Positions 21,101-61,276 of a stretch of 64,000 nucleotides of DNA are shown in pieces. Source of the stretch: Polytrichum commune (Eukaryota; Streptophyta; Polytrichopsida; Polytrichales; Polytrichaceae); NCBI GenBank assembly GCA_950295325.1, contig OX485805.1, positions 48,694,758-48,758,757 on the forward strand. The letters are read 5' to 3'. Each line of letters begins with the position of its first letter. Within the stretch, counting starts at the first letter, position 1. The notes beneath the pieces are model-generated. The model was not told the origin of the DNA and did not search any database. It worked only from the letters and a program-made list of their open reading frames with translations. The translations under genes and the position numbers were made by a program.

Positions 21101-21443
21101 GTCATTTTATTTGGCTCTTGCATCTATCATGCTAGCAATCATGCCATCTTTACCTATGCCTCATGAAGGTTTACGCGATGAACTTCACCGCAGTCGACGA
21201 ACTGTTGCATTGGCCATTAGTGTGTTGCTTTTGTCTATTCTAAGTATACTTGTTTCTTTTACATGTTCGTCTATTACTGGCATACCAGACGACTATTCTT
21301 GGGGATTGAAGTTCTACCCAGTCTTCATAGGTGGACTAGCTTGTATTCTAGTGATATTCTTGTTCTTCTTACGTTTGTTGAGACTTGTTTTCAGTACAAA
21401 TGGAAGGATCAAAGGCCTTTATCAGCTGTTTGGTAAGCTTTGA
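18157..21443 (+). CDS. Ankyrin-repeat protein with PGG domain and four membrane segments (ACD6/ITN1-like), two exons, 822 aa
   Basis: Coding exons are 18157-19515 and 20334-21443, joined in phase 0 (GTATGG donor, GTGCAG acceptor). The ATG at 18157 is chosen because it follows an acceptor-like TTTGTAG and gives MSETPDGPGG; an ATG in frame at 18133 is possible. The N-terminal half carries divergent ankyrin repeats (DGRTVLHVAVIQG, QGRTPVHVAITF, AAGRTPLHRAVANG, GATALHMAVLHNHAQSARYL, WTPLELAAVMGR) interrupted by a charged acidic linker. The exon 2 product adds RCLHLAAASGDPQSV and GHSPLHFAV, then the PGG domain (AKNSFNAAGNATAVVAALVA) and three more hydrophobic helices. Such proteins are plasma-membrane or ER-associated regulators of defence or salt/ROS signalling in angiosperms; the exact role here is unknown. 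Confidence 0.88.
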
Positions 21444-26907: not shown

Positions 26908-27059
26908 TGCAGGAGCTTCAATCACCAATTGAGCACACACTCTGAGAGCATCTGGGGACCAACCTGGGGGCTAAGGGTGAATTAGAAGTGTAAGGTTGGG
27001 TACTTGAGGAAAGAGATTGAATTCCAAATGTGGCTTCACTCTGGTTTGGTCTGCAAGGC

Positions 27060-39875: not shown

Positions 39876-40342
39876 ATGACTCACACATATATAAATATGT
39901 ACACACATTTTCATTCACACTCTCTCTCACACACACACATACACACACCTTTGTCAATGGATTTGGTGAAGATATTGGGTTACACACTCCAAGTTCCTAA
40001 CTTTTGTATAATCTCTTATACCCACATTAACAGTCTTATTCTTACACTCACACATATATTCTCACTCACATACACATTCTTACTTATATTCATATACATA
40101 TTCTCATTCACACTCTCTCACATACACATATATTTTCAACACACACACACACATTTTCAACACACACACACATCTTTATCAATGGTTTTGGTAAAGACAT
40201 TAGGTCACACACACACACATTTTCATTCATACAAATATACACATATACCTTTGTCAATGCATTTATGAAGACATTAGGTTACACATTCCAAACCCTAACA
40301 TTTGGAGTATTTCTCATATCCACACTAACACTCTTATCATTA

Positions 40343-40383
<41 letters not shown>

Positions 40384-40870
40384 TTTTATTCATACAAATA
40401 TACACACATACCTTTGTCAATGCATTTGGTGAAGACATTAGGTCACACATTCCAAACCCTAACATTTGAATTATTTCTCATGTCCACACTAACACTCTTA
40501 TCATTACACTCACATATATATTCACACACACACACACACACACACATTTTCATTCATACAAATATGCACATACCTTTGTCAATGCATTTGGTGAAGACTT
40601 TAGGTTACACATTCCAAACCCTAACCTTTGGATTATTTCTCAAATCCATACTAACACTCTTATCATTACACTCACACATATATTCACACACACACACACA
40701 CACACACACATTTCCATTCATAAAAATATATAAACATACCTTTGTCATTGGATTTTGTGAAGACATGGGGTTGCATACTCCAAGTTCCTCGCTTTTGATT
40801 TATCTATTATATCTATACTAGCACTCTCATACTCATACACACATTTATGGTAAACCCTAATATTGCAAAT
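39876..40870. repeat. CA-rich minisatellite with about 165-bp units inside the CACTA element
   Basis: The block TTTGTCAATGCATTTGGTGA plus AGACATTAGG recurs near 39950, 40170, 40251, 40412, 40575 and 40740, each followed by ACATTCCAAACCCTAACATT-type text and a run of CA dinucleotides. The open frames through this array are low-complexity and not genes. Confidence 0.85.
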
Positions 40871-40934
40871 ATTGGGTTCCACACTCTAAGTTCCTCACTT
40901 TTGGCTTGTCTCTCATATCCATACTTACACTTTC

Positions 40935-41540
40935 ATTCTCACACTCACAACTATATTCTCACTCCTACCCACATACACATTCTTACTCACATTCTTACAC
41001 TAACACACACATTGTCACATATTCTCACTCACACTCACAAATACATTCTCACTCCTACCCACATACACATTCTTACTCACATTCTTACACTAACACACAC
41101 ATTGTCACATATTCTCACTCACACTCACAAATACATTCTCATTCCTACCCACATACACATTCTTACTCACATTCTTACACTAACACACACATTGTCACAT
41201 ATTCTCACTCACACTCACAAATACATTCTCACTCCTACCCACATACACATTCTTACTCACATTCTTACACTAACACACACATTGTCACATATTCTCACTT
41301 ACACTCTCATACTCACACACATACATTGTCATTCACACTCTCAAACACATTCTCATTCATACTTTCATATACTCCCTCACACTCACACTCACACACACTC
41401 ACACACACTCACACTCACACTCACACACACTCACATTCACACACACACACACTCACACTCACACTCACACACACACACTCACACTCACACACACTCACAC
41501 TCACATATACATCCTCACTCTCACACTCAAACACTTATAT
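40935..41540. repeat. 90-bp tandem repeat passing into CA/CTCACA microsatellite
   Basis: Four nearly identical 90-bp units begin near 40942, 41032, 41122 and 41212, each with CTCCTACCCACATACACATT and ATTGTCACATATTCTCACTC. They pass into CACTCACA microsatellite to about 41540. Because 90 is divisible by three, all frames stay open, which explains the long open frames here. Confidence 0.9.
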
Positions 41541-42806: not shown

Positions 42807-44016
42807 TAAACAAATCTTCTCCATCACATCCCGTTGCGCTTAGAATGTCTCAAAACACTTAATGGCTCGATAATAAACAACCCACGGGAAATTACCGAAG
42901 AAATCTTCTCTATCCAAACTTTAGTAGGAAAGCCCCCTATGTTTGGACCCCTCAAATCACTCCAATCTATGTGCATGTATGGTACGCCAATACCCATGGT
43001 AAAGCCCACGTGGTTTCACTCTTCACAAACGAGGCCCGCCCAATGTACTAATATGAGACCAATACAACCAAGATATTTATAACACATATTTTAAACATCT
43101 ATTTCTAGGCAAGGTCATGGGCCCGAATAACATCTCCAATGAAAATCTAAAATCACTACTTAAACTTTCCACACCATGTTCAGCTACACACAAAAATGGT
43201 ATCAGATACCTGAAAACATAATAAAAAATCATGTTACACAAAAAGGGACCCCATGTTCCAACCAAACTATCGACCCATTGCACGAACCTGCACAATCTAA
43301 AAGCTTTATACTAGTACCCTCAGAGACCTCTAGTCATCCTTTGGTGAAACCCATAAGATACTTCACCAAATCAGCAAAGGATTTAGAGCCCAATGCAACA
43401 CCTCTCAGCAAATGCAAACTATATTGGCAACACTTGAAGACACATGGCTCACAAAGAAAGACATATACATCGAGTATATTGACTTTGGTAATGCATTTGG
43501 CTCCATTGACCATGTTTGGTTCCTCGTCATCATGCTTGATTTAGGTTCCCCAAGTGACGCAATAGAAATTATAAGAAATTTCTATACAGAAGCCACCATG
43601 TCATTTCACAGTGACGCATTCAGAAGCACCCACCCCATACACATTCATAGAGGTAGCATCCAAGGAGACACTTTGAGCCCAGAGCCACTCCTCTGATGGC
43701 TTGAATAAAACTCATACGGGTATCACTTCAACACCTAAACATCAAATGTCACACCACAACCTATGCATATTACATAGCCTTACTCATTGACGGCATGGAG
43801 AACATGCAACTCCAAATAGAAAAACTACACCTCTTTGTGTAATGGGCCAGCATGGACCTCAACCTATCTAAGTGTGCCGTCACTAGTGGCCCTAATAAAT
43901 CCCATCCCCCCCCCCCTCCACCAATATCTTCAAATCCTACTTATAAGCATTATGCATCATGTACAAAGGTAACCAATTCCCAATCCTATCACAAAATAAA
44001 CCATACACATATTTAG
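42807..44016 (+). pseudogene. LINE reverse transcriptase, middle segment of the split copy
   Basis: Continuing the LINE after the CACTA insertion, broken frames read RPAQCTN, then NYRPIA, then an open frame at 43412-43696 with TILATLEDTWLTKKDIYIEY, IDFGNAFGSIDHVW and IHRGSIQGDTLSPE. These are reverse transcriptase core blocks of a LINE. The catalytic YADD block is decayed (ALLIDGMEN follows). The segment ends PYTYL at the TTAG duplicated by the 16.3-kb element. Confidence 0.88.
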
Positions 44017-44045
44017 AACACTATATTCGGTAATTGGAGACTTTT
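44017..44045 (+). repeat. Left terminal inverted repeat of the 16.3-kb transposon
   Basis: Starts AACACTATATTCGG and continues TAATTGGAGACTTTT. It matches the reverse complement of 60274-60302 at 28 of 29 positions; similarity stops sharply beyond it. It is preceded by TTAG. Confidence 0.88.
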
Positions 44046-44419
44046 TGTTGATTATGAGACTATATAAGGATGCACATTTCAAAATTGGACCAGTAATGAT
44101 AACTAAAAATCCCATATGTATAATGGTATGCTACTATTATTATACATAAAGGCATGGAAGTGAACAAAAATGTGAGGCATACATGAAAATAGTTGCGTAT
44201 GAAATGACAACTTGTTATGAATGGAAGGGAAGGTGCGAAGAATGAATGGAAGTTGAATGAATTAATTGGGATTGAAATACAATTATAATGGAAATACCAT
44301 CAATGTCTTGAGTAACTTGGAATAGCATACTAGAAAGTAAGCACTTAAATATGTTCTACACCTAAGCATTTAGGGAGTCCGTCCCACTAGTACGCTTCTA
44401 GTCACACTAGTCCGACCCA

Positions 44420-45360
44420 CTATTTTTTTTTTGCGGCTAAGTCCTTTTTTTTGGCGGCCTCCATGGCTCTAAAAATCTCAGGCCCACGACTGTATCCTTG
44501 TGTGTTGCCTGGACAGGAATATGTGTCGTTCTTGCATGTTTCAGGACGCGCTCCCGAATTGTACGAGGTGGTATTATAAGTAGAATACGAGGGCGTTTGC
44601 GAAAGGGAACGTCTTGCGCTTCTCCGGAGGGCCAGACAACGATCGGACTCGGAAGATCCGGCCTTGAGGGCGTGCCTATCCAAGGAGGACATGGAGGAGG
44701 GCCGGGCACCACGCGAGTGGGTAGCCACCTGCGAAACAACGTCATAGGAAGATAAGAATAGGAATGGAGTGGGAAAAATAATGAGGGCGGTTTGGGATGG
44801 GCGCTCGTAAAGAGAACGGCACGCACACGGAAGACAAGGAAAACAAAAGCGGGAAAGGGGTTTAGGGTTGAGGAGGGCACCTTGGCTTTGGGGACGTCCA
44901 TGCGGGGAACGGTGGGAACGAGGGGGGCGTCGACGGGAGCATCCGGAGCCGATGGAACTATTGCACTGTTGGATGGCGGGGGGGAGTCGAGGCGTGGAGG
45001 AACGGAGTCGGCGGGGGAGGTGTGGCAACGGGGGCCTTCCATGCGGAGACGCCGGCTCGGCCCGCGACGAGCGACGGCGTTGTCCTTAGAGGGCGAGAGG
45101 TGCCCCAAACGAACGAGCGTCCGTTTCTCCTTGGAGAGGGGGGAGGGCAACGGGGCGTACGCGCGGGGGACAAGTGCTGGGGGCGGGCTGTTGACGACGC
45201 CGTCGTCGCGGGAGTAATCCACGGCCGAGGCCGCGTCGACCGCCGAGAAGTGGTAGAGGGATGGCATTTGGAAGTCCGTGACGTCGCGGGAAGGGGATGC
45301 CGGGGGCGAGAGGGGACGGGAAGGGCCATCGACTACAGGGGCGTCGCATATGGGGGCAGA
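44420..45360 (-). CDS. Proline/serine-rich module of the leftward transposon gene, two exons
   Basis: Minus-strand exons 45360-44881 and 44728-44420 join in phase 0 (GCCAAG|GTGCCC donor, TTTCGCAG acceptor). The first encodes a proline-rich, probably disordered stretch (first ATG at 45267, MPSLYHFSAVDAAS); the second ends EIFRAMEAAKKKDLAAKKK, a basic tail. A clean acceptor (CTTACCCATAG) precedes 45360, only 112 bp past the stop codon of the phosphatase-like exon. Either this is a separate small gene or, using a GTATAT donor at 45520, it replaces the last 15 residues of the large protein in phase 0. No family is recognised. Confidence 0.55.
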
Positions 45361-45472
45361 CTATGGGTAAGAACAAGAACAAGAACAACAAAAAACAAAA
45401 ACAGACATCCAAAAACATAGCAAGCATTAGATATGTGAACCACATGATAACAAGCAAAGACATGGAGGCATT

Positions 45473-46240
45473 TCAAATCAATTTATTGAGTTTGGCGAGC
45501 CTCATGATGCTCTTATATACATTATCGCGGGGGCTTAGCGCCGCATTGCCGAAGGGGTTGGACCTAACAAAAAATGGGATGCTACCGGCGTGGAGCACGA
45601 GCCTTCTAAGGTAGGGGGCTAGCCTATCGACCAAAAATGTGTCTTGCCTATCGCCGGTCCAAGTGTCCGGGAAGATGACGTTGCCCGGGGGGTTCAAGAC
45701 GCTCTTGGTGGGGCTGTCGTCGATGAGGAGGGTGTTCTCAGGAGTCGGCCACCACCCGTGGGGCGTCCCATGCAGACGGGGGACGCCTTGCCAGAGTCTT
45801 GAACGGAGGACCTTGAGGAACTGTTGTCCTCCGCCTCGACCGCCAAACTTGGGCACCGGTCGGCCTTTCTCGTCGAGCAGCTCATCGCAGTCCTCTTGGC
45901 CGAGGACGAGGCAAGGGCTCGGGAGATCACGGAATAAGAAGTGGACAATGGGCTCCGTGTTGTCCATGACCATGGAGCTCCACACAACGACGTGGGCGAA
46001 CTCAACCACCTCGCGAAGGAAGTCCCGCAGGCCGGGACGGGCGCAGACAGCCTTGCGGTTAATGAGGGTGTCGAGCTCGCCGTCGTAGTCCCTTTCGTCG
46101 GGGTGACGGAAGGGACGCGTGGGGACCCTTGGGATGTGTTGGGTGTGACACAACACCCCGTTGAGGTCAAAAACAAGGAACGGTTTGTTCCGGGTTCGAG
46201 GTCCACTGGTCGAGGGGTTGCGACCTATCTCCGGGGGGTC
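45473..46240 (-). other. FCP1/NIF-type phosphatase-like exon
   Basis: This 255-residue exon keeps the nucleophile aspartate and the distal DD pair of the haloacid dehalogenase CTD-phosphatase fold, but the acid/base aspartate two residues after the nucleophile is asparagine (DLN instead of DLD). FCP1-type enzymes remove phosphate from the RNA polymerase II C-terminal tail. The substitution suggests weak or altered catalysis, though plant DLNG-type members are known from general family knowledge. High GC relative to the flanking introns. Confidence 0.7.
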
Positions 46241-49200
46241 CTGTGATGAACAACGCGACTAGTTTAATTCTATGATCCAATAAAGAAATTGTTGCGTTGA
46301 AAATAAAGACGATGCATTATGGGAAAAGAGGAGGAAGTGAGGAGGGTGCAAGGAAAATGTTCAGAGGGGCACAATTGCGAACGACCGTTCGTGAATGAAG
46401 GCTGCGGGGCGGTGCGCATCATTTACGAACGCTCGTTCGTGAGCGCGGATGCATACATATATGAACGCTCGTTCGCGAAGGATGTCAAGACGGGGTCGCA
46501 CAGTTTTACGAACGAGCGTTCGTGAGTGAGGTGTGCATGCAAAGAATGCAAGGACGCGCAAGAGCACAGACAACACAAGACGCGAGAATATGCAATAAGT
46601 TGAGGGGATGCGAGCAGAGATCGTCTGCTCATATATTAATTCGGTGAATATGTACATTTGTCTCGCGTGATAATCTATCACAATTTCCTAAGGAAAAAAT
46701 GCAGTGTCCTACAAAATTGATCGGCCCAAGCGATCACGTAGAAAAATGCTCGCGCGGGCAACGTGATGTCGATGGAGTTGAAGCGCCAAGAACACAACGC
46801 GGGGGGTTAGTGATATTACGAACGCGCGTTCGTAAAACATTTGGCATTCTCAGAGATGAGTTACCTCTTTGATTAACGAACGCGCGTTCGTAATATCCAT
46901 TGGGGAAGCAGCCTCTGGATCCATGACCTCCGCTGGACGCTCCTCCTGAGACGACTGGGTCTGTTGGATGAGCTCCACGTCGTCGTCCCCGCCCAGGTCG
47001 AGTCTCTCCATGCGGACATCCTCCATGTGCGCGGACGGATGTCCTTCCTGATCAGGGCTCTCCACGACCATCCCACGCGGACCTGCCAAGTCATTGGGGC
47101 TCCCCTGCGTTTCCTCCACAATGACCATGTCAGTGTGTTGCGCAGTGTCATCGCCCCTTCTATCTAGAACCCTTGGGACGACGGTGAAAGAGGCCGTGTC
47201 GGTGTCTGTGGGCAGTCTTACCCTTGAAGGGGGAGGGGTGAGGACTGCCGGACCTGAAGATTCACGAACGCGCGTTCGTAAATCTTCGTCCTCCCTTAGG
47301 GCCGCCGTGATTGCATCGTGGGAGGTTGAGGCGGCCGCCGTCACTTCGGGGGGCAATGGACTTCCCGCCGGCGTTGGGTGTGGCGCTGTTTGGTGGGAAG
47401 GCCCTCCTTGGTACATGACTGGAGGTGGGGGCTGTGAGGGGTATCCTCCAGGGGGGAAGGGGTAAGGTTGCTGGACCGGCGCAGAGAGGCTCTGCATTTT
47501 TCTGAGCATCTCGAAGATGGCGTCGGTTTTGGCCGCTGAATCCCTCAGCTGCTCTTGCAGCCTGGCCAGATGCTTGGCGCTCTCCTCCTGTGCTGCAGCC
47601 ATCTCCTCCTTCATCTTCGCCTCCAGCTTGGCGTTGAGCTCAGCGACGGTGAGTGCCTCCTCCTTCACCCGCTTGTTCTTGTCGTAGTCCACGCCAAGCT
47701 CGGCCATGATGTCCATGTCCCCCTCGTCCTCGTCCGAGACCTCGATGATTGCTCCCGGCGGCAACTCCACGTATGGAGTCTTCTTCATCCTCCTCCTCGT
47801 GTTGCGGAAGAGGTCCAAAGATGGCCGCGAGCGTTGGTCGAGGATGTCCAGGGTTTCCATCTTCGGAACCACGGCGGGCCTTGGAGACTGTGACGTCGAG
47901 CATCCGCCTGGCGTTCCGAAAGGCTCCGCAAGAGATGTTCTCGCGGGGAGGACGTCCAGGGTTTTCCCCGCGGACGACCCGGTGTAACCACCCGGCGTCC
48001 CTTGAGGGTCGGGAAGATCCGTTGTTGGCGGCAAGATCCGAAGTGGGGGTACGTCGAAGGACTGCAGAATGGCATCCACGTTGGCGGAGGGGGTGGGCTC
48101 GTCGTCCTCAGAATCGTGGAATGGTATGCCCTCGTCGGTGAGCATACTGAAGTCCATCCTGGGGACAGAAATGTCCTTGAGGTCCATCGTCGACGCCTTC
48201 GCACGGTGGATCTTGAAGTCTTCTTTGTCGATAGCGTCAATGAATGTGTTGACTACGAGACCCATCATCTGTGAGAAGAGAGCAATAAGGTCAGAAAATA
48301 CGAACGCACGTTCGTAAACATCAAAGCGTAGCGTGCAACGAGTTTCAAGCATTACATTACAAAGGGGTTATGTTTACGAACGAGCGTTCGTAAACATGAA
48401 TGCGTCACGTGCAACGACTGTGAAACAATACATTGAGAAGTTGGTTAACTTTACGAACGAGCGTTCGTAAATAGAGTCTGGACAACTTACCATGGCCACA
48501 TACATGAATTTGGAGCCTCCACATACGTTGTATACCGTCTCTCCACTTATAACCAGACTCTGCAATACAGAGACGTAGAACTCCATCCTGAGTTCCATGG
48601 CGGGGAAGACGGTGTAGAGGGTCTCTTGCAGCAGATCCTTGGGAGGGGGATGCGGGATGCTGTAGATTTTCTTGAACGTGTTGTTTGCCTTGATAGGCGG
48701 TCGCCCATCCCTTAGCTCATTGTACGTCAAGAAAATCAGGCTGACCGCTCCCACCTGCTTGTTGCCCCTGGCCTCGTTGATGGCCACGATCCCCTCCGTC
48801 TTCGCTGGCACGTACGTGCTGTGGAAGATGCTGTACTCGAATTTGATCTTCTGCTCGTACAGCTCTGTGACCACACACAGCTTCTCTTGTTCGACTATCC
48901 ACAGCCAAACGTGTGGCTCCCTCATGGCCGGCGATTTGAACTCCATGAACTTGGCCATGAAAGGGTTGTAGAAGGGAATGTTCTTCCCCCCTTGCCTTGA
49001 CGCACCCGGGATCCCCCTGAAATCGATCAGGGCAAAAGGGCAACCCCGTCGATCCTCCCTCACCTCGGCCCTGCTGATGGTGCCGTCCCACTTGGAAAAT
49101 GTGACCCTCTCCATGCCGGAGGTGATCACGCAAAACCTTGCCACTCCTTCGAATGTGGCGTTCCTCTTCCTCTCCAAAAATTTTAAGTACAGCATTACCT

Positions 49201-51225
49201 CATGGGGATCCGTGTCGGTTTTCTTAGTCCTTTTGTTCCCTTTCAACTTCAAAACCGAGGCGTGCTCCTTGACCAGACTGCGCATGGAGGCTCCGTTGAT
49301 GTTGTAGTCGACCTTTAACATTTGCCATTGCGGCCAGATGATGTCGCCGTCGACTTCAAAGATTCTGTACTCTGGTACGAGTACGCTCAACTCTCTCATG
49401 GCTGCAGTCTTCAGCTTCCGGTGGTCACACCACTCCTTGATAGAGTACGTGCCGGGCTTGTGCTTTGGCCACTTCAAAAAGATCTTGGAATAGGGAAAGG
49501 TTCTTCCCACGGTGTTCCCAAGAACATGAATCGCACACCTCTTCAGCTCTAACTCCGTCAATCCCTGGAGGTGTCTAAAGAACTCCCTCAGTAGTGGGGG
49601 CGCTTCACCGGTTTTTTCCGTGCTGTACTTTTCCTCCGTGTCGGGGTTGACCAAATCGCCCGAGCTGTGTGCATCAAAAAACTGGGTCCACAAGTCCCAT
49701 GTGTCCCTGTTGCAGCAGATGAGCCTGAGCTCACCCTTCAGCTCAAGCACAGACTTTGTGGTGGTGGACTTCATATCGATGGAAGAGAACTTGTCTACCA
49801 TCGCGTCGCAAAATGCCTGCACAAAACAAGATGTCAGTGTTGCACATAATACGAACGCACGTTCGTAAATTGAGTCAGTAATTGATGTTTTCGTGAGTCC
49901 AACATTTTACGAACGTTCGTTCGTAAACTCACCTTCCATTGAGGAGACTGGTTCTTGGCGTTCTCCCTCTCCTTTGGTGGGCATCCATGTGCCACCCAGA
50001 CGTCTCTCGCAGCCACTATGTTAGCCGCCCACGAAGCCTCGAACGCCTTGATTTTGTTCCCCGAGTTCAGGAAGGTTGAAATCTTGCGCAGCTTGTCCCA
50101 ATCGTCTGACCAGACCAAGAACGCCTTCCAGTACCGCAAGTCAGCCTTCAGCTCGTGCTGGAAGTTGTCATCCTTGAGGATCTGTTGCGACGCCTCCAAG
50201 CTATGCTGACCATCTATAATCCAGAATTCTCCATTCTGGATTCGCGGCCAATCCATCTCTGTCGGTCGGGATGTCAGCCCCTTGGGCATGACGCAGACGG
50301 TCTGCCTATCCCACTTGACGTTGTTCATGAGGTTGTTGATCTGCCACTTCACCCCACCGCTCTCGCGAGACCTTACCACCCACTTGTTGGGGGACTTTTC
50401 GCACTTGAGGCAGTCCACGTTGAACGTGAAGTGGCGCCCCATGGGCCAACAATCCTTTGAGTAATTATTGAAATCTCGTAGGATCTTTGTTGCCTTCACT
50501 GCATCTGGATTCTCACCCTTCTTTAAAGGGGTTGGCATCAGGGGAGGAGACCTCACCTCAGCGCCCTCTGTTACCCCAGACTTCTCCATTTCGTCCCGGG
50601 ACCTCTTCGATGGCGTGGAATATCGGCTGGGACCCTCCGTCACCCTACTCGCGGAAGGCACCGGCCTGGGTGCACTTCTCGATCCTCCTGCCCCGGATGC
50701 GGATGGTTTTCGTGGGCTCTTCTTCTTCTTGTTGGCTTCGGCGACCGCGCTATTGTACTTGGAGATATTCAAGGAAAGCGCGGCCAACTTCTTTGCTGTC
50801 CAGTATGAGCTCAGGGCGTACTTCGTGAACAAGTCCTTGAGGAAGTGTTTGGCATCAGCGACTACGTTATTTTCTGCGTATGTGTAGGAGAAACTATGTC
50901 TCCTGTACTCTAATAGGAGGTTAATGTGATCCTTCTTATTTTTCATGTCTAAAATCACATAATCTCCTTGTGCCTCAATTGATTCTACTTCCCAAGTCTT
51001 CATCTGCACCCATTGCTCTGGCTGGTCCGGCGTCGTTTCCAGCTCGTAGGTGAAGCGAAGACAGAAAAGACCGTCTGATGTCTTCTCTGGCAGTGCCGTC
51101 CATTCCCCAATGAAGTCCTCCTTCGGGACATAATTATCGTTTCCGTTGGGGTCGGACACTGACTCTGGTAGCTGATCTATCTGCACTGCGAACATCTCAA
51201 TGGCGCTCCTGCTCGGTCTAGCCAT
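45473..51225 (-). CDS. Large leftward transposon protein: DGQH (ParB-like?) domain, novel middle, disordered coil, FCP1/NIF-like phosphatase domain; four exons, about 1,596 aa
   Basis: Exons 51225-49933, 49816-48491, 48268-46865 and 46240-45473 have consensus splice sites, all phase 0. Residues 334-350 read FWIIDGQHSLEASQQIL, resembling the phosphate-binding motif of ParB/DGQHR proteins (usual arginine replaced by serine); after it come FLNSGNKIKAFEASW and VWVAHGCPP. Residues 165-240 are basic and disordered, with NLS-like KKKKSPRKP. Residues 432-873 form a folded region I do not recognise. Residues 874-1341 are acidic and proline-rich with a coiled coil (LEAKMKEEMAAAQEESAKHL). Residues 1362-1596 match FCP1/NIF-type HAD phosphatases: FLVFDLNGVL (D1366; the second acidic residue is N1368), VVVWSSM and LLIDDSPTK (D1515-D1516). 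An acceptor (CTCTGCAG) directly precedes the ATG, so an upstream leader exon is likely. The exons could also be separate genes. Confidence 0.65.
46377..46833. repeat. Palindrome cluster in intron 3 of the leftward gene
   Basis: Sites at 46377-46392, 46425-46440, 46461-46476, 46508-46523 and 46818-46833; three are perfect ACGAACGNNCGTTCGT, one has A1 to G, one has CpG to TpG at position 2 plus a change at position 16. Confidence 0.9.
46876..46891. repeat. Palindrome inside exon 3 of the leftward gene
   Basis: A perfect ACGAACGCGCGTTCGT lies 11 bases before the exon 3 donor. It is translated as TNARS in the minus-strand frame, so the protein tolerates it. Confidence 0.85.
47264..47279. repeat. 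Second exonic palindrome in exon 3
   Basis: Perfect ACGAACGCGCGTTCGT read in another frame as part of LRTRVRESS. Its presence in a low-complexity coding region fits a spreading or selected DNA motif rather than a protein motif. Confidence 0.85.
48300..48468. repeat. Three palindromes in intron 2 of the leftward gene
   Basis: Perfect copies at 48300-48315, 48376-48391 and 48453-48468, spaced 76 and 77 bp. They fill most of the 222-bp intron (48490-48269). Confidence 0.9.
49851..49924. repeat. Two palindromes in intron 1 of the leftward gene
   Basis: Perfect copies at 49851-49866 and 49909-49924 in the 116-bp intron (49932-49817). The second starts 9 bases after the GTGAGT donor. Confidence 0.9.
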
Positions 51226-51258
51226 CTGCAGAGCACATAAACATTTAGTATTGTGTTT

Positions 51259-51820
51259 ACGAACGAGCGTTCATAATTGACAAGAAAATCATATATACTA
51301 ATCAATGAACGCTGGCTATGGGTACCCGTGAGGAGTTTTAATTATGTCTTCGCTGATTTCATTTACGAACGATCGTTCGTAAAGAATGTGGTTGCTAAGG
51401 TGTATTTGACACAAGTTTACGAACGTGCGTTCGTATTGTTTGTAAACAAGTCCACGAGTTGTCCAGTGTTATCTAATTTCCACGAGGGTTGTTCGAATTT
51501 CCATAAGCATCTTCTAAATAGGTGAATTAATACTTTAGTTCTTATTTACAAACGTGCGTTCATAAATTATGCTACTTGGGAATGCAGACAATTACCATGA
51601 AGGGTTTGGGATATTATTATAGTTTGTGATTACGAACGTTCGTTCGTATTTTTGTATGTTTCATTTGGATTTGAGGATTTTCTGATGTACAGGGTATAAA
51701 CGAATATACGAACGTGCGTTTGTAAAAATGGAGGGTGAGGTGCGTATTTACGAACGCACGTTCGTATATGTTTGTGGGGTAAGGCATGTATTCACGCCAC
51801 ATTTACGAACAAACGTTCGT
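51259..51820. repeat. Eight palindromes upstream of the leftward gene ATG
   Basis: Sites at 51259, 51365, 51419, 51548, 51632, 51708, 51750 and 51805. Four are perfect; the other four carry only CpG-to-TpG/CpA changes. They lie in the presumed leader intron just upstream of the acceptor at 51226. Confidence 0.88.
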
Positions 51821-52770
51821 AAATGTGGTCATCTGGGATTAGGAAATGGTATTTATTTATATACATATATCCGTACATATACGTATACATATATGTACAT
51901 ATGCGTATATATGTTGGTATGAATGTTGCGATCTGGCATTGTTCATGATCCTGCAACTCGTGATCAGATTGATGAAACACAAGTGAAAAATGGAATCAGA
52001 ACAAAATTGCGAGTCAGTGATTGATAGTTCAGAATGAAGAGGAAAGTGTTATTTCATACAAAACATGCCATACCTCATAATGCAAAAAACAAATCACAAG
52101 GAATTCATCAAACAACAATTTCAGATTGTGAAGGACTGATTTGTAAAGGAAACCTGTACTCACATTGAATTGTTGCACAGAAAACCTCCTGCCTCCTACT
52201 GAGAAATCCAGAAATCCTCACAAATGCACACCAAATTGTCTTTCAAAAGCGCTGAATTCGCTTTCAATTGCAATTTCACTTTGTCACACTCTCAAGCCTT
52301 CACAACTTATATGCAAATCTTACACAAACCCTGATGTACACAACTCACAACCTTCAGAAATCTCAAGCTTTCTGAAACTCTCAAGCTCTCAAGCTTTCCA
52401 AAACTCTCAAGCTCTCAAGCTTTCTGAAACTCTCAAGCTCTCAACCTTTCTAAAACTCTCCACTTCTCAATCTTTCTAAAACTCAAGCTCTCAAGCTTTC
52501 TAAAACTCTAAACCTCTCAAGCTTTCTATAACTCTCAACCTCTCAAGCTTTCTATAACTCTCAACCTCTCAACCTTTCCTACTCTCAAGCTTTCCTATTC
52601 TCAAGGTTCTGACAACACAACAAAACAACATTCACAATGAGGCTCTAAAATTGGCAAGGGCTTCGCCGCACCTAAGAGCTCCTCTCCCCCTCTGCTCCAA
52701 ATGACAAATGAGGAGGAGAGAGAGGGGCGCGGGGAGGTAGTCGGCGCCGCTAGGGTTTCCAAGCGGCAGC
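51821..52770 (-). promoter_or_regulatory. Probable leader region of the leftward transposon gene
   Basis: On the minus strand a donor (CAAT|GTGAGT, intron starting 52163) and an acceptor (GAGTTGCAG, exon starting 51950) suggest a spliced 5' UTR beginning between the G-rich array and 52164. The 52370-52600 part is a tandem array of roughly 20-bp TCTCAAGCTTTCTAAAACTC units. No protein is supported. Transcription start is not located. Confidence 0.4.
52370..52605. repeat. Short-unit tandem array (TCTCAAGCTTTC type)
   Basis: About ten imperfect copies of CTCTCAAGCTTTCTAAAA-like units occur in a row, some with ACCTCTCAACC variants. The array is palindrome-free with respect to the 16-bp motif. Confidence 0.8.
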
Positions 52771-52796
52771 CACGTGGCTAGTGGCCACTGGCTAGG

Positions 52797-53030
52797 GCTG
52801 GGATGGGGGATGGGGAGGGAATGGGGAGGGGATGGGATGGGGGGGATGGGATGGGGGGGATGGGATGGGGGGGATGGGATGGGGAGGGGAGGGGATGGGA
52901 TGAGGATGGGATGGGATGGGGGGGATGGGATGGGGAGGGGAGGGGATGGGATGAGGATGGGATGGGAGAGGGGGAGGGGGAGGGGATGGGGATGAGGGGA
53001 TACCATGGGGACATGGAGGGATGAGGGTTC
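52797..53030. repeat. G-rich minisatellite GGGATGGGATGGGG
   Basis: More than 200 bp of GGGAT/GGGG units with a longer-range period of about 63 bp in part (GGGAGGGGAGGGGATGGGAT repeated). The plus strand could form G-quadruplexes. Open frames through it are low-complexity. Confidence 0.85.
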
Positions 53031-53404
53031 AGGAAAAATGAAATAGGAGATGGGAGGAGCTTAGTTTAGGGACATAAATTTAACTTTCCGTATCCCCTTA
53101 GTACCTCGACATATGGATTCCTTGTAAACATATTTTAGAAAAGTATGTTCAGATAATTTGTATTTAATAATTCATGTCATTTAGTAGGTTTTCGATGAAG
53201 AATCCACCCCCAAGATGCAAATGTCGTTTTCATGAACGAGACATCTTTAAAGTTCTTCAATGGTTCCTCAAATACATATTACATATATAAATGACTCAAT
53301 TTGAATTGTGGAGAGGGGCTATCTGATTCTCCACAAGAGGTGGATGAAAATTCAATTTTCAATACGATGTTATTAATTTAATGAGGTGTTAGCTTGAACC
53401 ACCC

Positions 53405-53742
53405 TTAATATGATATTTAGTGTTAGATACTCTAAATACAAACGCATAGTACACTAAATATCAGTAACCCTATGAAAGTAACTACTATTCATTGTGAACT
53501 CAAACACTTAATTTCAACTATAATGCTAATATGTGGATGTCGCATGCACAAATTTTGTGTAAGGAAATTAATATGAAAAAAACAATTAACAATGATAAAA
53601 GCATAAAGGACATGGTAGTAGGAAATGTGGTGGCCCATTTAATATGTCCAACACTAATTATCAAAGAATTGAAATTTAGTGTTGACCATGATAGTGTAAC
53701 AACACTATATTATGCAATCAAACACTAAATATCATATTTAGT
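53405..53742. repeat. MITE-like insertion in the centre of the 16.3-kb transposon
   Basis: TTAATATGATATTTAGTGTT near 53406 is inverted near 53723-53742 as AACACTAAATATCATATTTA. The 340-bp interior is AT-rich and non-coding. Confidence 0.55.
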
Positions 53743-55331
53743 GTAGTGTATTTTAGCCATGTGGTCGCATGTTTTGCTAATAGTATCAATAATTGATAGT
53801 ATGACCTTCCCATAAATTAAGTTAGTGCGATATGGATTATTTAGGAGTCGATATTGTTTGTGTATATAATGCATTGAAGTAACGATCTAAACCCTAAGCC
53901 CGCAAACCACATAGACAACTTTCACAAACTCTATACCCTAACCCCAAACCCTAAACCCTAAACCCTACATCTTTTTATCTTACCAACCTTTCTTATATAT
54001 GGCCATGTTGTGGTCTATGCGCATCATGTCAAAATGGTCTACGAATGTTGGTTCGATTGGAACTTGCCTTATTTGGGTCATAGCAACTATAATAATCTAG
54101 ACTCATGCCAATAATTGTCATTTTGATATAAAACATTGGTTTAGGGGGTGAAGAGTGAATTTTGAAATGCTAGCCCTTTCACCTTAATAGTTTTGAGTGC
54201 AATTTGATCACAAAATACACACTTAGTCTTATTATAACATGAATGGTTTAAGACTTCAACTTAAATCAACAGTTTAAGCTATGGTCATACACATACTTCT
54301 TGTTGCAAATAATACAAATATATAATTGTAAGTGCATACTATTGTATGCACCATTCCAAATTAGTTATCCATTTCCATACCATGGTGGACCTAAAGTGAA
54401 TTTCCAATAGGACGTCAAGTCATTTAATTAGGTGTCAACTTGAACTAACGATCGAATACTAGTGCATTAAACTTTAATTTTCACCAATGATGAATTGCAA
54501 CAATGAGTCATATTAATATGGGGCGATGTTTGGTGAGCCTCCAGTTCCAAATGTCCTCAATCTACCTAGCACAAGCCACTATGGATTAAGCGATTTTTTA
54601 TTGGTATTCATGCACTTGGTGACCATATTACAAGCATTTTTTTTATGTGAATCATATGATACCTACAATTTTAGGGGATTCCACAATATGTTTTTAGCCA
54701 CTCTTACCTCATTGTGTGTGTGAATATATATATCACTTAGACCTTCATCAATTCACTTGGACTTCACACCTTAGTCGCAAATAATTTAATACTCAATGTT
54801 AACCCATCAACCCATATATATATATAATATAATAACCCATATATAAAATAGTAAAATATAAATTATACATATATATACATATATACATACATATATACAT
54901 ATATACATATATATATACATATATATACATATAAATATAGACATATAGACATATTTTCGTGCGACCTTAGTAACAACTAAGGTGTGCGACGGATTTATAG
55001 ATTTACAATATGTTGCATGCACGCAACACATGTTCCATACATAATGCTATTTATATATTGCGCATGGATGGAATGGCATATTATTAGGTCAAAGTAGGCG
55101 GCGGGAATCCGCTTTTTAAATAGCATCCAAGGGATTTTGAACCATCGGAGGAAAGGTACTTAAAACTCTTCCCCCCACAGAAGAGCTCTTTTCTGCGGCA
55201 CATCCAAGTATGCGCTCCACAGACCTGACTGGAACGCGCTCAAACCATTTTCTTGTGCGCCAACCCCACACCTCCCAGGTCCACTACAGACTGCACATAC
55301 CCGTATATACCGCCGCAAATACCGGACGTTT
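53743..55331. other. Central palindrome-free AT-rich region of the transposon
   Basis: No coding frame is supported. It contains a short CCCTAAA run (about 53940-53966) and an AT microsatellite (about 54815-54960). The absence of the 16-bp palindrome from 51.8 to 55.3 kb, although present on both sides, suggests this block was added later or serves another role. Confidence 0.45.
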
Positions 55332-56616
55332 ACGAACGCACGTTCGTAAACGTGAGTTGGTAGTACATGCACAAGAGGTACATAGAGATGATGTGAATTG
55401 TTTATGAACGTGCGTTCGTAAGTTGATCACAACCGTACTCGACATTGAGTTACTTATAGACAGAACTAGGCACGAAAATTGTGTCGATTATATACGAACG
55501 TACATTCGTATATCTGCCTTCAAGACCCAGATGCGCATGAGTTCCGTGTACCCGTTTTCTCCAACGGAACATCTGATGATGGGATGTAAATATCACCTGG
55601 GATTATTTTTCAAGAATCCATAAATATTCCTTAATTTATAAACTTTCGTGCATTGGCCACGTTAACAATATGGAAGTTAAATACGAACGCTCGTTCGTAT
55701 TTCTCACTACCATTTATGTCCACGAAGAATTATGTTTTCCAATTTTACGAACGCACGTTCGTAAATACCACCTGTCCACCGTCCACGCATCCACCAACAG
55801 ACTTGTTAACGCAAGCATGTGTGGAGGACTACACCATGTTTAGGATAGATACGAACGCTCGTTCGTATTTCGCATTACCATTTATGTCCACGGAGAATTA
55901 TGTTTTCCAATTTTACGAACGCACGTTCGTAAATACCACCTGTCCACCGTCCACGCATCCACCAACAGACCTGTTGACGCAAGCATGTGTAGAGGACTAC
56001 ACCGTGTTAATGATAGATACGAATGCTCGTTCGTATCTGCTCAATCACGATTTTAGTGATAGATGTCGATTGTCATTTTCCACTGGATATTGAATTTCAT
56101 GTATCCCTGTAACATGGCTATAGATATCTCTATTCGGACGTGTCCAATCATTTTTGCCTAACACTGTCACGGCTGTAACATACATATGATCGGTCGTATG
56201 CATCCGCCCCTATGTTTCGGCTGGAACTTACGAACGATCGTTCGTGTACATAAGCCCTTCATTTCGGCTGTAGCTAACGAACGATCGTTCGTAAACACTC
56301 GCCCATCAAATACACGCCCCTCAAATATGATGCTTACTGCATGTGAATAAAGTGGCAAGTATATTTTTGGTGCTCTTATAATATGTCCCATTTAGATTTT
56401 ATTGTATATTGGGTTGATGTTTTCGTCCTCGCGTTCGTGAATATATGTGCTTGTGTTGTCCCTTGGTGGTGGAAAACCCTTCCAATGTTTTATTTGCGAC
56501 TCCACCCAAAGCCCTTCATGGGTAATATATATCGGAATGGGGTTCCGTTGTGCAGGGACGTCTGAGTCCCGTGTAGGATTTGTATGTCATGGGGATGTTA
56601 TCGAACGCACGTTCGT
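55332..56616. repeat. Eleven palindromes upstream of the transposase gene
   Basis: Sites at 55332, 55404, 55494, 55683, 55747, 55851, 55915, 56019, 56230, 56277 and 56601; seven are perfect. Three of the other four differ by a single CpG transition, the last by A1 to T. None lies in the transposase exons after 56760. Confidence 0.9.
55683..56034. repeat. 168-bp tandem duplication, each unit with two palindromes
   Basis: Sequence from 55683 repeats from 55851, and the start of a third unit is at 56019. Each unit holds two palindromes 64 bp apart. Units differ by a few substitutions (for example CACGAAGAAT against CACGGAGAAT). Confidence 0.9.
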
Positions 56617-56759
56617 CTTCATATGTGAGGTCCCTCAACGGTGTGTCGAGTGTTGGTTGTGATTTTTCAGCCATATATGTAGGCATATCTCGTATCCGCT
56701 TTTGTATGCATTGCGGTTGTTGGTGTGTTGGTCATTTATTGGTGGTTTGTTTAGGTTGG

Positions 56760-59700
56760 ATGGCGATGCACGTTGGATATAGTTCATTGGAGTTGTCCAC
56801 AAAAGCTTCCTCTTCCGATGGTGACTGTAAACTATCTTCGGCATCGGCGGGTAGTCATGGCATGGCAAATGCCATGGGTGGGTTTGTGGATGCATCCTCC
56901 CACGAATCATTTGAAGCGCACGAACAATCTATACGTTCCGGGAATGACAATGATGACATTCCGTTATGTGCCGGTTTCGGTAGGGAGCAATGGGTGGGCC
57001 TTGATGTTGTTCTTTTCAACGATGTTGGTGTCCCGGTGGCAGATGGCATATGTAGAAACTCCGATCCCTGTGATTGTGTGGATGCCAACCCCCTTGGTCC
57101 CAATGATGTGGGTATGTGCATCTTGAATTCTTTGCTTCCGCTTGACGTCCCGGTGATATGGAGATTTTCCTTGCGTCGATGGCCTCTTTGTCGGGTTCTC
57201 CATGACGGAGTAAGCTTGTTGGACCATGAGTGGCGCCATAAGCAAACGCAATTAGCTTTGTTGGCCAAAATACGTCCTCGCAAAGGCCTACGCAGATATG
57301 ATTCTAACCGTGTGCCTCGTGGAGATAAAGAACATCGACGGGATCGCATATTGGGAGACGAATCTATCCGTCTTGTGTCCGCCAAGGACTGTTGCGAGAG
57401 GAAATGTTGCCAATTTTTCCCGCGGGAGAAAATTAAGTCCCTACATCAAGAGATGTGGCTTGCGGATTTTCGTATGAGATTGGCAAAGAAACTCGAGGTC
57501 CACAAAAATGTCCACATTGACACCCATGGGCATAAGGTGGTCACACTTGAGAATGTGGAAGTGTGTTGTACTGCGTGGTATACTATCCAGGCCGTGTCAA
57601 AGTCTGACTTTTATAGGTTTCAAAAGTATTCATCGTTGGGTCGCCGCTCTCGATTTCATGGCAATTCGGGCACAAAGAATCCTAGCGAGGCTACACTCCA
57701 AGCCTCCGCGACACTCTCCACCATCATAGTCCCATTGGCCGATGCAATGCCCCACAAGACGAGGACATTGTCGTCAGGGGAGAAAGTTGTACAAATGGTG
57801 TTGCCCACGAGTACAAAATGGAAGAACATATTAACGGACATCAATGAAGTGGGTCGCATAGCGGAATGTGGGCCCATTTCTTTGTCCAAGTTGAGTGTGA
57901 TTAAAAACCAACAGTTTGCCGAATACATTTTGAAGAAACCCGGGAACAAGTTCGCTAGGTGTACGACGTGTGAAAAATACAAAGGTCTTCGAGACGCCCA
58001 CCCCATAGGCACCGAATCCCACACTAGACACCAAGCAAAATATATTGAACATGTCAACAACCAAGAGGCTCACCGTCAAGATTACTACAAGAACCGTGCT
58101 CTATCCATAATGAGGCCTACAGAGGTTCTAACAATCATCCATGATAAAATGGACCACGCCAAGACCGCATGCCCTTGTTATGCACGCAAAATAAAGGCCA
58201 CGGATGGTCTCTTCAAGTTGCCCGTATCTGTCACAGGTTTGTATTGAATCACAAATAATCTGTATTCAAATTCTCTCAAATTTTACTGGGTGTGTTTGCC
58301 AAATGTCCAATTTCATACCTCCGTTTGGAGTTGTCGTTGTTATTGTTGTTGTTCAAGCATCGTTTATTTTTTTCCGCAGGGATGATTGCCCACGGCCATG
58401 GAGACATAAAGTATGCCCATTATGGGTTGGATTTTTACCCTGGCGATGCTAACCACACAGTGGGTTCATTTGCAAAACTCTTGCGCGATCTGGAGAAGCC
58501 GCCGTTACATTCATCACGTGCACTTTTTGATGGTTGTGGAACGACACCCCTTTACGAAGCAGTGCTTGCGGGGAAGGAGGTTTGTATGTCGTCATTGCCA
58601 GAACCACCGGGAGAACCTATTTGTGCAAAACCATTGCCTCCAACTCTTCACGTTCAACTTGATAATTGCGCGAAAGACAACAAATGTCGATATGTATTTT
58701 GTTATTGGTCATTGCTCGTGGCGAAAGGAATCTTCAAGGAGGTGTTTGTGTCGTTTTTGATGGTGGGACATACACACGACGACATTGATGCATCATTCGG
58801 ACGGTGGAGCATGAAGTTGCATGAAGAAGATTTTCCAACCATACCTCTTCTTATGAAATCGTATATGGATTTGGACCATATACCAGTAATTCCGCACATG
58901 ATTGAGGAAGTACCAGATTTCAAGGCCTTCATCAAGTTATACATGTTGAAGGGAGGGGACCGTTTGGTGGGGCATACCAAAGCACAACAATTCCGATTTT
59001 ATATAAGGGATGATGGTCTTCCAGCCATGCAATTCAAGCTTTTGTGCACATCTCCTAATTGGTGCCCGGATGATGGTATACTTGTATGGCGTCAAGACAA
59101 TGATTGCAAATGTTTGCTCCCGGATGGGGATCCAAAGCCTTGCAAACCCGACCCCATGAGGAATGGGCCGGAAATCATCAAAGGCATATCCGGATTCATT
59201 GAATATTGGAAAGAGTTGTGTGAGGAGGACATTACTAGACGTGTTAGAGATACTCATGAACCTTTGATTGCGTATTGGGATCGCATTCATTCCGCCCTAA
59301 TGACACTTGGTGGTGACACCCGTACAACTTTAACACAAGGATTTTGGCCACAAAGTCGTTTGACGTTTGTCGAGTCCGACACCATGGTTTTTAGCAATGG
59401 AGACATTCGTGAAGAGTTCGCAATGGACGAGCATTACGTTGGCCCTGCCCGCAATCGACCAGCACCATCGTTTCATGTAGGTGTTGATTGCCATGAAGGT
59501 TATTTGGTCCTTGTACGAGCAGGGGATGAGGAACATCCCAAGCCAATTTGGTTGGTGAAAGCATTGTCTTCATCCAATTTTGTTCGAACTAGCCCCAACT
59601 TCCGTCAGATTGAGGTGGAATATTGTCGTCCAAGTACTAAAGACCAGAACGTGCTACGCACTTATTTAGGTTGGGACACCAAAAAGAATTTTAAGTGGAC

Positions 59701-59899
59701 AGTGGACTCAGCGTACACACCGGTTTGGATAAACACGGATACTATACTTTGTGCTTGGAAGCCGCGCAAAAGGTCCAAAACAGAAACAATGACCATCCTC
59801 CAAAAACATATAGATTTTGCCAAAGACAACTTGGCACGTATTGCAGCGGCAAAAAATGACGCCGAGAATGGATATGAAGCGGAAGATGGAGATGTGTAA
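56760..59899 (+). CDS. DUF7869-type transposase-like protein, two exons, 998 aa
   Basis: Exons 56760-58236 and 58380-59899 join in phase 1 (ACAG|GTTTGT donor, TTCCGCAG acceptor), restoring LPVSVTG-MIAHGHGDIKYAHYG. The ATG at 56760 follows an acceptor-like TTTGTTTAG; the frame is open further upstream to 56580. Residues 1-240 are variable. A cysteine pair (RCTTCEKYKGLRD) precedes the catalytic core. Candidate RNase H-fold acidic residues are D462/D465 (IIHDKMDHAK), D587 (HVQLDNCAKDNK) and D627/D629 (GHTHDDIDASFGRWSMKL). These blocks match the DUF7869 family from general knowledge. The C-terminal part (LVKALSSSN, VEYCRPS) ends with a basic helix and acidic tail. It is likely the element's transposase, acting in the nucleus on the terminal repeats. 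No frameshift is seen, so the gene may be intact. Confidence 0.82.
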
Positions 59900-60273
59900 A
59901 CATAACATAGGTGGGAGTTAATGGCGAAAAACATGGGCGATTAGTAGATTTGGTTTTTAATAGACTTAGTGGACTTGTCACACTCCATTGTGGTATACGT
60001 TTGGGATGTGCCATCCAAATTCATAAGAGCCTTACTTATGGGATGCGCACCCCAAACTCTATAATGACATAAACCATTTGTTTTTTTTGGAGTGGATTGT
60101 TATTTTCCACATGGAGCTCACTTTTCATTTTAATTGAAATTATCTATTTTTAGTAATAAGAATATCTTTTACGTACGAATTTTTAAATCGTCATGTTCTT
60201 GATATTTCCAATATTCCGTATGCCCACAATATTGGCATCCCAAACTATGGGCATATTTTATTTTGAGACTTTC
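59900..60273. other. 3' UTR and right subterminal region of the transposon
   Basis: AT-rich and non-coding between the transposase stop and the right terminal repeat. It carries GGGATGTGCCATCC, GGGATGCGCACCCC and ATTGGCATCCC segments that may be subterminal repeats. Confidence 0.5.
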
Positions 60274-60302
60274 AAAAGTCTCCAATTAACGAATATAGTG
60301 TT
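60274..60302 (-). repeat. Right terminal inverted repeat of the 16.3-kb transposon
   Basis: Ends ACGAATATAGTGTT and is followed by TTAG. Just inside it, GAGACTTTCAAAAGTCTC forms a small hairpin. Confidence 0.88.
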
Positions 60303-60660
60303 TTAGGCATCCAAGTGATCCCCACCTTGAAATAGCATATTCCAAATAAATCACTACATCAAAAATTGAAATCTAGTGCAAAACAATATTACTATCCCCT
60401 GCCACAATTATACAAAAAATAAAATAAACAACATTGTTATATGCCCAAGAATTGCATACTCATTCTATGTTCCACTCTTTTCCAAGCTAGACATCACAAG
60501 ACTTGACAAAATCCTCATCTGCCTTACCAAAGGAGTGTGCAAAAACCCTAATAATTCACCAAATATCCTAACGAACTACCTCATATGGACAATCAAAAAG
60601 ATTTTCAAACGCATCCGAAAACCTAATCACAAGCGTGTGAAAATTCATCATCAGTCACAA
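60303..60660 (+). pseudogene. LINE reverse transcriptase, 3' segment of the split copy
   Basis: Directly after the TTAG duplication the sequence reads LGIQVIPTLK, then in a second frame CPRIAYSFYVPLFSKLDITR and LDKILICLTKGVCKNPNNSP, the region after the RT core in this LINE family. It thus completes the PYTYL at 44012. Frames are broken. The LINE is lost beyond about 60660. Confidence 0.85.
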
Positions 60661-60769
60661 GGCTCTTGCAAGGCTGCAATCAGGCTTGCATATTTCCCTC
60701 ATTTGTTATTTCCCCAGCTGTGTTTGATGAGCAGGCACATGGGTACAATGAACGAGGAGAACCGACCGC

Positions 60770-61200
60770 TAGAGTAGAGGCGCCCATAACCGATCACTTA
60801 TGAAAATATGCACCAGGTTTGGAGAAGTATAAGGCCATGCAAATGTCTCCCATGTAGGAAGATCAAAATTAAGAGACATGTATATATCTTTTTTTATAAT
60901 TTTATTCCTTAAATTGAAATTATTAAGAATTTTTTAAGCCAAAAGTTGGTCCAAATCAACATAGAGTCTATCATAACCACAGTCTCATTTAAACCTCTCA
61001 TTCCTCCTCAATTTAGCACTCAAAATCAAGACATATTTGTCATGACATTATTGATTTCGGTCTGTTCAAAACTCAATCCTTATCAAAATTTCTCCTCCAA
61101 ATTTTTATCTTCTTACACGGGAAAAATCTGCACCACCTTATACATCTCCCAATCTGTTGTAAAATCTCTAAAGCAAGCAGTTATGGGCGCCTCTACTCTA
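60770..61200. repeat. MITE-like element with 21-bp perfect inverted ends
   Basis: TAGAGTAGAGGCGCCCATAAC at 60770-60790 is exactly inverted at 61180-61200. The preceding text CAATGAACGAGGAGAAC also occurs at 14587-14603, so flanks are shared with another repeat. Confidence 0.75.
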
Positions 61201-61276
61201 CCGATCCACTTAGAGGACTACACAAAATATACTTCAATTTCATTAAGAAAAAAAAAACCGAAAGATCACGACCAGT

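Follow-up and report, generated by a model that had tools for sequence, protein, structure and literature searches.

The analysed stretch of DNA, 64,000 bp of contig OX485805.1 of the moss Polytrichum commune (assembly GCA_950295325.1, positions 48,694,758 to 48,758,757 of the forward strand; below, the window), contains a DNA transposon of 16,286 bp (44017-60302) bounded by inverted ends of 29 nucleotides (nt) and flanked by a target duplication of 4 bp, TTAG. Two divergent genes are present in this element, a leftward gene of four exons and a rightward gene encoding a DUF7869 protein, together with 32 dispersed copies of a palindrome, ACGAACGNNCGTTCGT, which are the subject of this study. 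The element was classified as a DNA transposon based on its inverted ends with a target duplication and on multiple genomic copies having the same ends. In the whole assembly (407.8 Mb, 64 contigs), the end pattern was found 480 times exactly (243 forward and 237 reverse), compared with 0 for the reversed control. A nonautonomous relative on another contig of chromosome size has CATA on both sides, which gives a target duplication of 4 bp. Assignment to CACTA-type elements with CA..TG ends was rejected: wherever the end of a copy was matched, the shared end sequence follows AA (with the sole exception of one weak match with 6 mismatches), and the 4-bp duplication is external to this AA.

Genes and palindromic sites of the element

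The leftward gene has GT-AG splice sites and a single open frame of 1596 codons. Its exon 4 encodes a NIF domain (Pfam PF03031, E 2.5e-16, 60.2 bits against a gathering score of 21.8). The catalytic motif of NIF/FCP1 phosphatases is DxDx(T/V), while the first phosphatase motif of exon 4 reads DLNGV in the window; DLN is kept in four of five inspected copies (regions B, D, E and F), the fifth being a fragment that ends short of the motif. This suggests that the domain, as judged from its sequence, is a conserved pseudophosphatase. A search of the PDB with this exon returned nothing at E 0.001. Exons 1-3 gave no informative match in Pfam, NCBIfam, PHROGs or PDB (exon 1 weakly matches a PHROG of unknown function, E 0.0044), and no relatives in viral contigs were confirmed. 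The rightward gene consists of two exons, the second of which encodes the DUF7869 domain (Pfam PF25273, E 5.4e-37), and its product is a putative transposase. No library match beyond DUF7869 was obtained for this protein and nothing below E 0.41 in the PDB; DUF7869 was not found mentioned in the open-access literature searched.

A search with up to two mismatches identified 32 sites in the window, 21 perfect and 11 with one or two changes, of which the first starts at 45109 and the last ends at 56616; none was found outside these limits. In 100 dinucleotide shuffles the mean number of matches was 0.03 and the largest was 1. The extended consensus obtained from a weight matrix is TTTACGAACG-NN-CGTTCGTAAA, and a position-weight scan added only weak candidates, e.g. 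at 56182 and 56423 (best, 11.0), compared with scores of at least 17.9 for the 32 sites. The two central bases are nearly devoid of G at the first position (0/32) and of C at the second (1/32). The leftward gene carries two sites in intron 1, three in intron 2, five in intron 3 and two in exon 3; 8 sites lie upstream of its start, 11 upstream of the rightward gene and one at 45109. A preliminary description of the window had given the same counts and limits, with no sites elsewhere, an expectation by chance of essentially nil, sites in all three introns of the leftward gene and a dense placement upstream of both genes, and in all this it was correct. It also placed three sites in coding sequence, which holds for the two in exon 3 (46876 and 47264), whereas the third, 45109, lies in an open reading frame (ORF) of uncertain coding status. 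Site 56601 is inside a long ORF, yet ahead of the likely start of the rightward gene. No sites occur in this gene past its likely start, in the 3.5-kb centre of the element or within 1 kb of the element ends, the outermost ones leaving 1.09 kb free at the left end and 3.69 kb at the right. Some sites are contained in tandem duplications of 168, 76 and 47 bp.

The perfect motif occurs 5602 times in the genome, compared with 4 occurrences of the reversed pattern and 0 of a CpG-matched scrambled palindrome, and so it is not equally frequent in unrelated DNA. The restriction to one transposon, as originally proposed, therefore applies to one family (here F1), not to a single element. The first 100 motif places in contig order (a non-random sample) formed 6 clusters. 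Relatives of the leftward gene were detected with tblastn in all six, one of them with fragments only, and among these places the motif marks relatives of the element. The fragment-only cluster (C1:632000-651999, L009-L010) is a 9.5-kb element with both ends, 42 sites and no ORF longer than 172 codons, i.e. a nonautonomous derivative retaining its arrays. Many of its sites are spaced 34 and 93 bp apart and have the centre GG, and G as the first centre base is absent among the 32 sites of the window. Since only the best candidates were scored in the genome protein searches (97/1088, 85/1856, 106/1588, 94/1110 and 91/941), all copy numbers are lower bounds.

Conservation of the sites and palindromes of related families

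Conservation was analysed in the best 30 of the 97 scored matches of the leftward gene (1088 candidates), with the window copy included; the copy of region C, with a stop in exon 1, was excluded from alignment A1. Within the 1000 bp upstream of the gene, none of 1410 non-CpG motif cells departs from the majority base, compared with 786 of 24,725 other non-CpG cells. For CpG cells the respective values are 37/1876 in the motif and 77/918 elsewhere (Fisher tests, 9e-20 for non-CpG and 1e-14 for CpG, with kin copies counted as independent). Intron 1 follows the same pattern, with 1/349 non-CpG and 15/463 CpG cells off the majority in the motif and 146/2456 and 13/58, respectively, elsewhere. In coding exon 1, 569 differences were counted among 34,470 non-CpG cells.

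Comparisons with more distant copies gave a similar picture. The site columns of intron 1 are identical (28/28) to those of each of three such copies, compared with 73-78% identity in the remainder, and the centre bases vary where the arms hold (AA, AG, AA and TT across copies at the first site). Upstream of the gene, identity with three more distant copies is 85-88% in site columns and 55-59% elsewhere. Two copies were compared over intron 3 (site columns 96% and 88%, remainder 79% and 80%), and in one copy of intron 2 the values are 83% and 65%, respectively; one intron 2 site is missing from both copies compared. F1 copies with a left exon 1 of 84-88% identity have one common motif, and F1 sites hold their position, though most flanks differ among the sites. 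None of the arm changes in the 11 imperfect sites of the window is matched by a compensating change in the opposite arm.

A distant DUF7869 gene in one region with a relative of the element led to further families, designated F2a, F2b, F2c and F3. The F1 motif (up to 2 mismatches) is absent from the stretches read upstream of the right genes of F2a, F2b and F3. Instead, palindromes of their own were read there, from one element per family: (i) TTTCCTCT-CGGCCG-AGAGGAAA in F2a (three copies, one imperfect), (ii) CACTTTCACT-CGATCG-AGTGAAAGTG in F2b (four copies), with a perfect palindrome of up to 28 bp, and (iii) GGTTTGGGT-CGNNCG-ACCCAAACC in F3 (17 copies in 78-bp tandem repeats, with the centres AT, GT and CT). 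For F2c, a CGNNCG palindrome was predicted before the 900 bp upstream of one left gene were read, and was then found as CACTTCCACT-CGATCG-AGTGGAAGTG, in six copies, of which five have the exact core and the sixth a mismatch; none of 300 random 900-bp draws from positions 1-43 kb of the window held palindromes with the F2c core. This palindrome differs from that of F2b by one base per half, symmetrically. The CG-NN-CG core is common to all five palindromes, while the arms differ by family. The cores searched occur in the genome 284 (F2a), 237 (F2b), 101 (F2c) and 10,011 (F3) times, with 0 for the reversed control of each.

The layout of these families corresponds to that of F1. In F3, a homologue of the leftward gene (35% over 472 amino acids, E 8e-65) lies on the opposite strand; sites were found upstream of it, at its exon 1 end (two) and upstream of the right gene (17). 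The two at the exon end are taken to be in intron 1, by homology to the exon end in the window. For one F3 left gene (C1:621464-622810), the listed sites after exon 1 form three groups, which, counted from the end of the match, lie at -10 to 161, 1611-1683 and 2908-3281 bp, as three introns would give. The F2b homologue (30% over 199 amino acids, E 4e-22) has sites upstream and one between the exon 1 and exon 2 matches. Positions were then evaluated for the genes on contigs C1-C4 (right genes of 52-53% identity, those of F3, and several short or low-identity left matches being omitted), using the first 50 sites of each F2 subfamily in contig order, again a non-random sample. All 50 listed F2a sites lie in the expected places, namely up to 2.5 kb upstream of left exon 1 (20 sites), up to 2.5 kb past it (9) and up to 5 kb upstream of the right gene (21). 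The same is true of the 50 listed F2b sites (26, 5 and 19, respectively). When 20,000 positions were drawn at random from the two largest contigs, only 55 fell in such places.

The left exon 1 of F2a and F2c is approximately 57-64% identical to that of F2b (F2c, approximately 64%), while the right DUF7869 region of F2 is 81-98% identical to the query in full-length matches. Over 449 codons, the identity of many F3 left-gene copies is 99-100%; nine matches round to 100%, and their bit scores differ by no more than 0.6 from that of the query itself. F3 has therefore probably moved recently, and the system may still be alive.

A candidate anti-silencing system of the element

The conservation of the arms alone, together with family-specific palindromes in a shared layout, is as expected for sites of a co-evolving element protein, and in this respect it supports the proposal of the preliminary description that these are dispersed binding sites. 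Symmetric sites with a nearly free centre, one-sided uncompensated decay and changes of both halves in step point to a homodimeric DNA-binding protein. We consider it reasonably likely, from these sequence features, that the palindromes are operator-like and recognised by a dimeric, element-encoded protein, most probably the product of the left gene, which would keep the control regions active. Each half site would comprise the constant inner CG and family-specific outer bases, with two nearly free bases between the halves. A dimer of the left protein would bind the arrays upstream of both genes and those in the left-gene introns and, probably through local prevention or reversal of silencing (CpG methylation), maintain the activity of these regions, in consequence of which the transposase gene would be expressed. 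During the divergence of families, protein and sites would change together, so that each family would respond chiefly to the protein that it encodes. Of the two proteins, that of the left gene is favoured as the binder because the right region of F2 is more similar than left exon 1 while the palindrome differs, a comparison that is only indicative, since different kinds of protein region were compared.

The base composition was examined as well. The element exons have an observed/expected CpG ratio of 0.71-0.95; the flanks (0.52 and 0.49) and the site-free centre (0.45) have lower values. As controls, exons of host-like genes gave 0.35, 0.59, 0.87 and 0.58; the right gene, which has no sites, gave 0.84-0.88. 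The raised CpG of the element exons is compatible with lasting hypomethylation, but is no proof of it.

Several observations weigh against the proposed role. The raised exon CpG could reflect just youth or coding constraint, and 9 of the 13 changes in the imperfect window sites are CpG transitions, which indicates that methylation reaches the sites at times. Conservation is not uniform, as 9 of 240 upstream site instances are gapped in the 30 copies and in the second copy of intron 2 site columns are no more similar than the remainder (69% each). With respect to the left protein, a DNA-binding domain was recognised by no library model searched, and single-sequence structure models of exon 1 (431 amino acids) and of its last 182 amino acids were unusable, with a mean predicted local distance difference test (pLDDT) score of 37.2 and 34.5, respectively; the right protein could be the binder instead. 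Finally, only 40 of the 50 listed F2c sites are placed as expected (9 have no listed F2 gene near them and 1 has one only within 20 kb), and four F2a elements carry lone F2c-type palindromes, at a distance of approximately 490-500 bp from F2a sites (C1:8966635, 37786912, 61453147 and 66153293). Mixing or relics thus exist and the exclusivity of families is not absolute; the palindromes in F2a elements would be relics or a transitional state of the code.

The strongest alternative, to which we would give a limited chance, is that the sites bind an element-encoded transcription activator only, i.e. that they serve autoregulation, with no role in silencing or methylation. The arrays upstream of both genes and in the left-gene introns are indeed placed in an enhancer-like manner. 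However, sites are also present in intron 3 and exon 3, their richness in CpG within a CpG-poor genome and the precedents of VANC and TnpA (see below) suggest a link with methylation, and a nonautonomous element would gain little from keeping 42 sites (as inferred from one element).

A second alternative regards the sites as internal transposase sites for the rightward DUF7869 protein, aiding the assembly of the transposition complex. It is consistent with arrays adjoining a DUF7869 gene in the families read and with the ORF-poor 9.5-kb derivative, which keeps its sites between the ends as if they were needed for mobility in cis. We consider it unlikely, as the sites remain 1.09 and 3.69 kb from the ends, are clustered at promoters and in left-gene introns and are lacking past the right-gene start, a distribution that fits regulation better than end recognition. 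Moreover, the DUF7869 part of F2 stays 81-98% identical while the palindrome changes along with left exon 1 (approximately 57-64%).

The perfect palindromes, of up to 28 bp, could also form hairpins or cruciforms, or bind a host factor, without any partner encoded by the element. This is very improbable: a single host factor would not explain a distinct palindrome per family that is uniform across its sites, and the uncompensated arm changes fit protein-DNA contact better than a hairpin, for which the two-base centre would be a poor loop and the element yielded no Rfam family at gathering score. That the motif is a functionless passenger repeat, spread by tandem duplication (some sites do lie in such duplications, and copies share sites by descent) and by copying of the element, has a negligible probability in view of arms far more conserved than their surroundings, F1 sites that keep their places between mostly unalike flanks and the occurrence of five palindromes in equivalent positions of five families or subfamilies.

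In the literature examined, the clearest example of a transposon encoding its own sequence-specific anti-silencing is VANDAL/VANC of Arabidopsis. The moss system appears to be independent of it, having genes that are unrelated, symmetric sites that are much longer and number in the thousands, and five or more site variants within a single genome. VANC belongs to the DUF1985 proteins and is encoded by a Mutator-like element; in the moss element, DUF1985 matched neither left exons 1-4 nor the right exons at E up to 1, and left exon 1 of three relatives likewise gave no match when E values up to 10 were allowed. In noncoding regions of VANDAL elements, short motifs specific to the family are bound by VANC proteins, which also remove methylation (PMC5735166, PMC10398659). 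Like the VANDAL elements described in PMC5735166 and PMC10398659, the moss element has a family-specific short motif repeated, partly in tandem, in noncoding transposon DNA, related families with different motifs and an element gene evolving along with the motif. The motifs of VANC measure 8-9 bases and are nowhere in PMC5735166 stated to be palindromic, whereas the sites described here are palindromes of 16-28 bp. The latter also differ in their constant CGNNCG core and in their presence in introns and one exon, and the genes are those of a DUF7869 protein and of a left protein with a DGQHS motif and a NIF domain.

TnpA of the maize element En/Spm (CACTA) binds repeated sites near the element ends. 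The inverted end of the moss element likewise contains CACTA, but its ends start with AACACTA, its target duplication is 4 bp and the terminal 1 kb on either side is free of sites. TnpA is an element protein that activates its element, in correlation with demethylation, as cited in PMC10398659. In the best reading, by analogy, the moss system would work like VANDAL/VANC anti-silencing or Spm TnpA, with no detected relationship to either. An element protein acting with dispersed element-specific sites against silencing is thus already known (VANDALs and, in part, Spm), while a palindromic code with a constant core, different arms and these genes appears new, no description of it having been found among the results listed in searches of the open-access literature. 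Lanisha transposons have reportedly been proposed by moss genome workers. For CMCT elements, PMC12730594 gives mostly CA..TG ends and duplications of 2-5 bp. Compared by description only, the moss element differs from the Lanisha/CMCT group in its AA..TT ends with a 4-bp duplication.

A further parallel concerns bacterial ParB and its site parS, a 16-bp palindrome. ParB-parS and DGQHR/DndB-type systems share with the moss element palindromic sites and a DGQH motif in the (candidate) binder. In left exon 1, codons 338-342 read DGQHS, which by eye resembles the DGQHR signature; DGQHS is present in two F1 copies and in F3, and NGQHT in F2b. The arginine is missing, and no ParB/Srx or DGQHR family profile was matched in searches of Pfam, NCBIfam, PHROGs and PDB. 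A DGQQR/DGQHR-type motif has been assigned to the ParB/Srx fold (PMC4619093). An extended version of the proposed mechanism, possible but clearly less probable than its basic form, is a two-part address code. The invariant CGNNCG core would sense CpG methylation and the switchable arms would give family identity, while a ParB/DGQHR-like reader, loading at the palindromes as ParB does at parS, would keep the whole element unsilenced; new families would arise by a joint arm switch of protein and sites (as in F2b/F2c). With the single symmetric difference between F2b and F2c, the question of how the specificity of a protein switches jointly with that of dozens of dispersed sites becomes accessible to experiment. 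If the basic mechanism holds, left proteins would be candidate sequence-specific epigenome tools.

Feature map and surroundings of the element

The features of the element are listed in Table 1.

Table 1 Features of the Polytrichum commune transposon (positions in the window)
Feature	Position	Strand	Basis
Left target site duplication, TTAG	44013..44016	.	flanks of inverted ends
Left terminal inverted repeat, AACACTATATTCGGTAATTGGAGACTTTT	44017..44045	+	inverted-repeat search
Site with one mismatch in GC-rich ORF region, coding status uncertain	45109..45124	.	motif search
Left gene exon 4, NIF/FCP1-type phosphatase domain	45473..46240	-	gene model and Pfam
Left gene intron 3, five sites (46377, 46425, 46461, 46508, 46818)	46241..46864	-	gene model
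Left gene exon 3, coding sites 46876 and 47264	46865..48268	-	gene model
Left gene intron 2, three sites (48300, 48376, 48453)	48269..48490	-	gene model
Left gene exon 2	48491..49816	-	gene model
Left gene intron 1, two sites (49851, 49909)	49817..49932	-	gene model
Left gene exon 1, 431 codons	49933..51225	-	gene model
Eight-site array upstream of left gene	51259..51820	.	motif search
Centre without sites, CpG-depleted, between the two arrays	51831..55320	.	CpG count
Eleven-site array upstream of right gene, partly within 168-bp tandem duplication	55332..56616	.	motif search
Right gene exon 1, start uncertain (further in-frame ATGs at 56589, 56595, 56706)	56760..58236	+	
Right gene exon 2, DUF7869 domain	58380..59899	+	Pfam
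Right terminal inverted repeat	60274..60302	-	inverted-repeat search
Right target site duplication, TTAG	60303..60306	.	flanks of inverted ends

Downstream of left exon 4, a GC-rich ORF of 276 codons (44437-45267, minus strand) contains the site at 45109; it had no Pfam match and is perhaps a further exon or a third gene. The site-free centre (51831-55320) holds CTCAAGCTTTCT, GGGAT and AT repeats. Just outside the element, at 60764-60875 and 61095-61206, lies a 112-nt inverted repeat, 76% complementary, with its arms 219 nt apart. A tRNA scan of the window was empty. The apparent host genes used as CpG controls, recognised by eye, encode an ankyrin-repeat protein (18133-21443), a CutC-like protein (24284-25099) and a cupin/germin-like protein (26263-26940). 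Long CA, CTCACA and 90- to 180-bp tandem arrays with a strong strand skew occupy positions 40206-41534.

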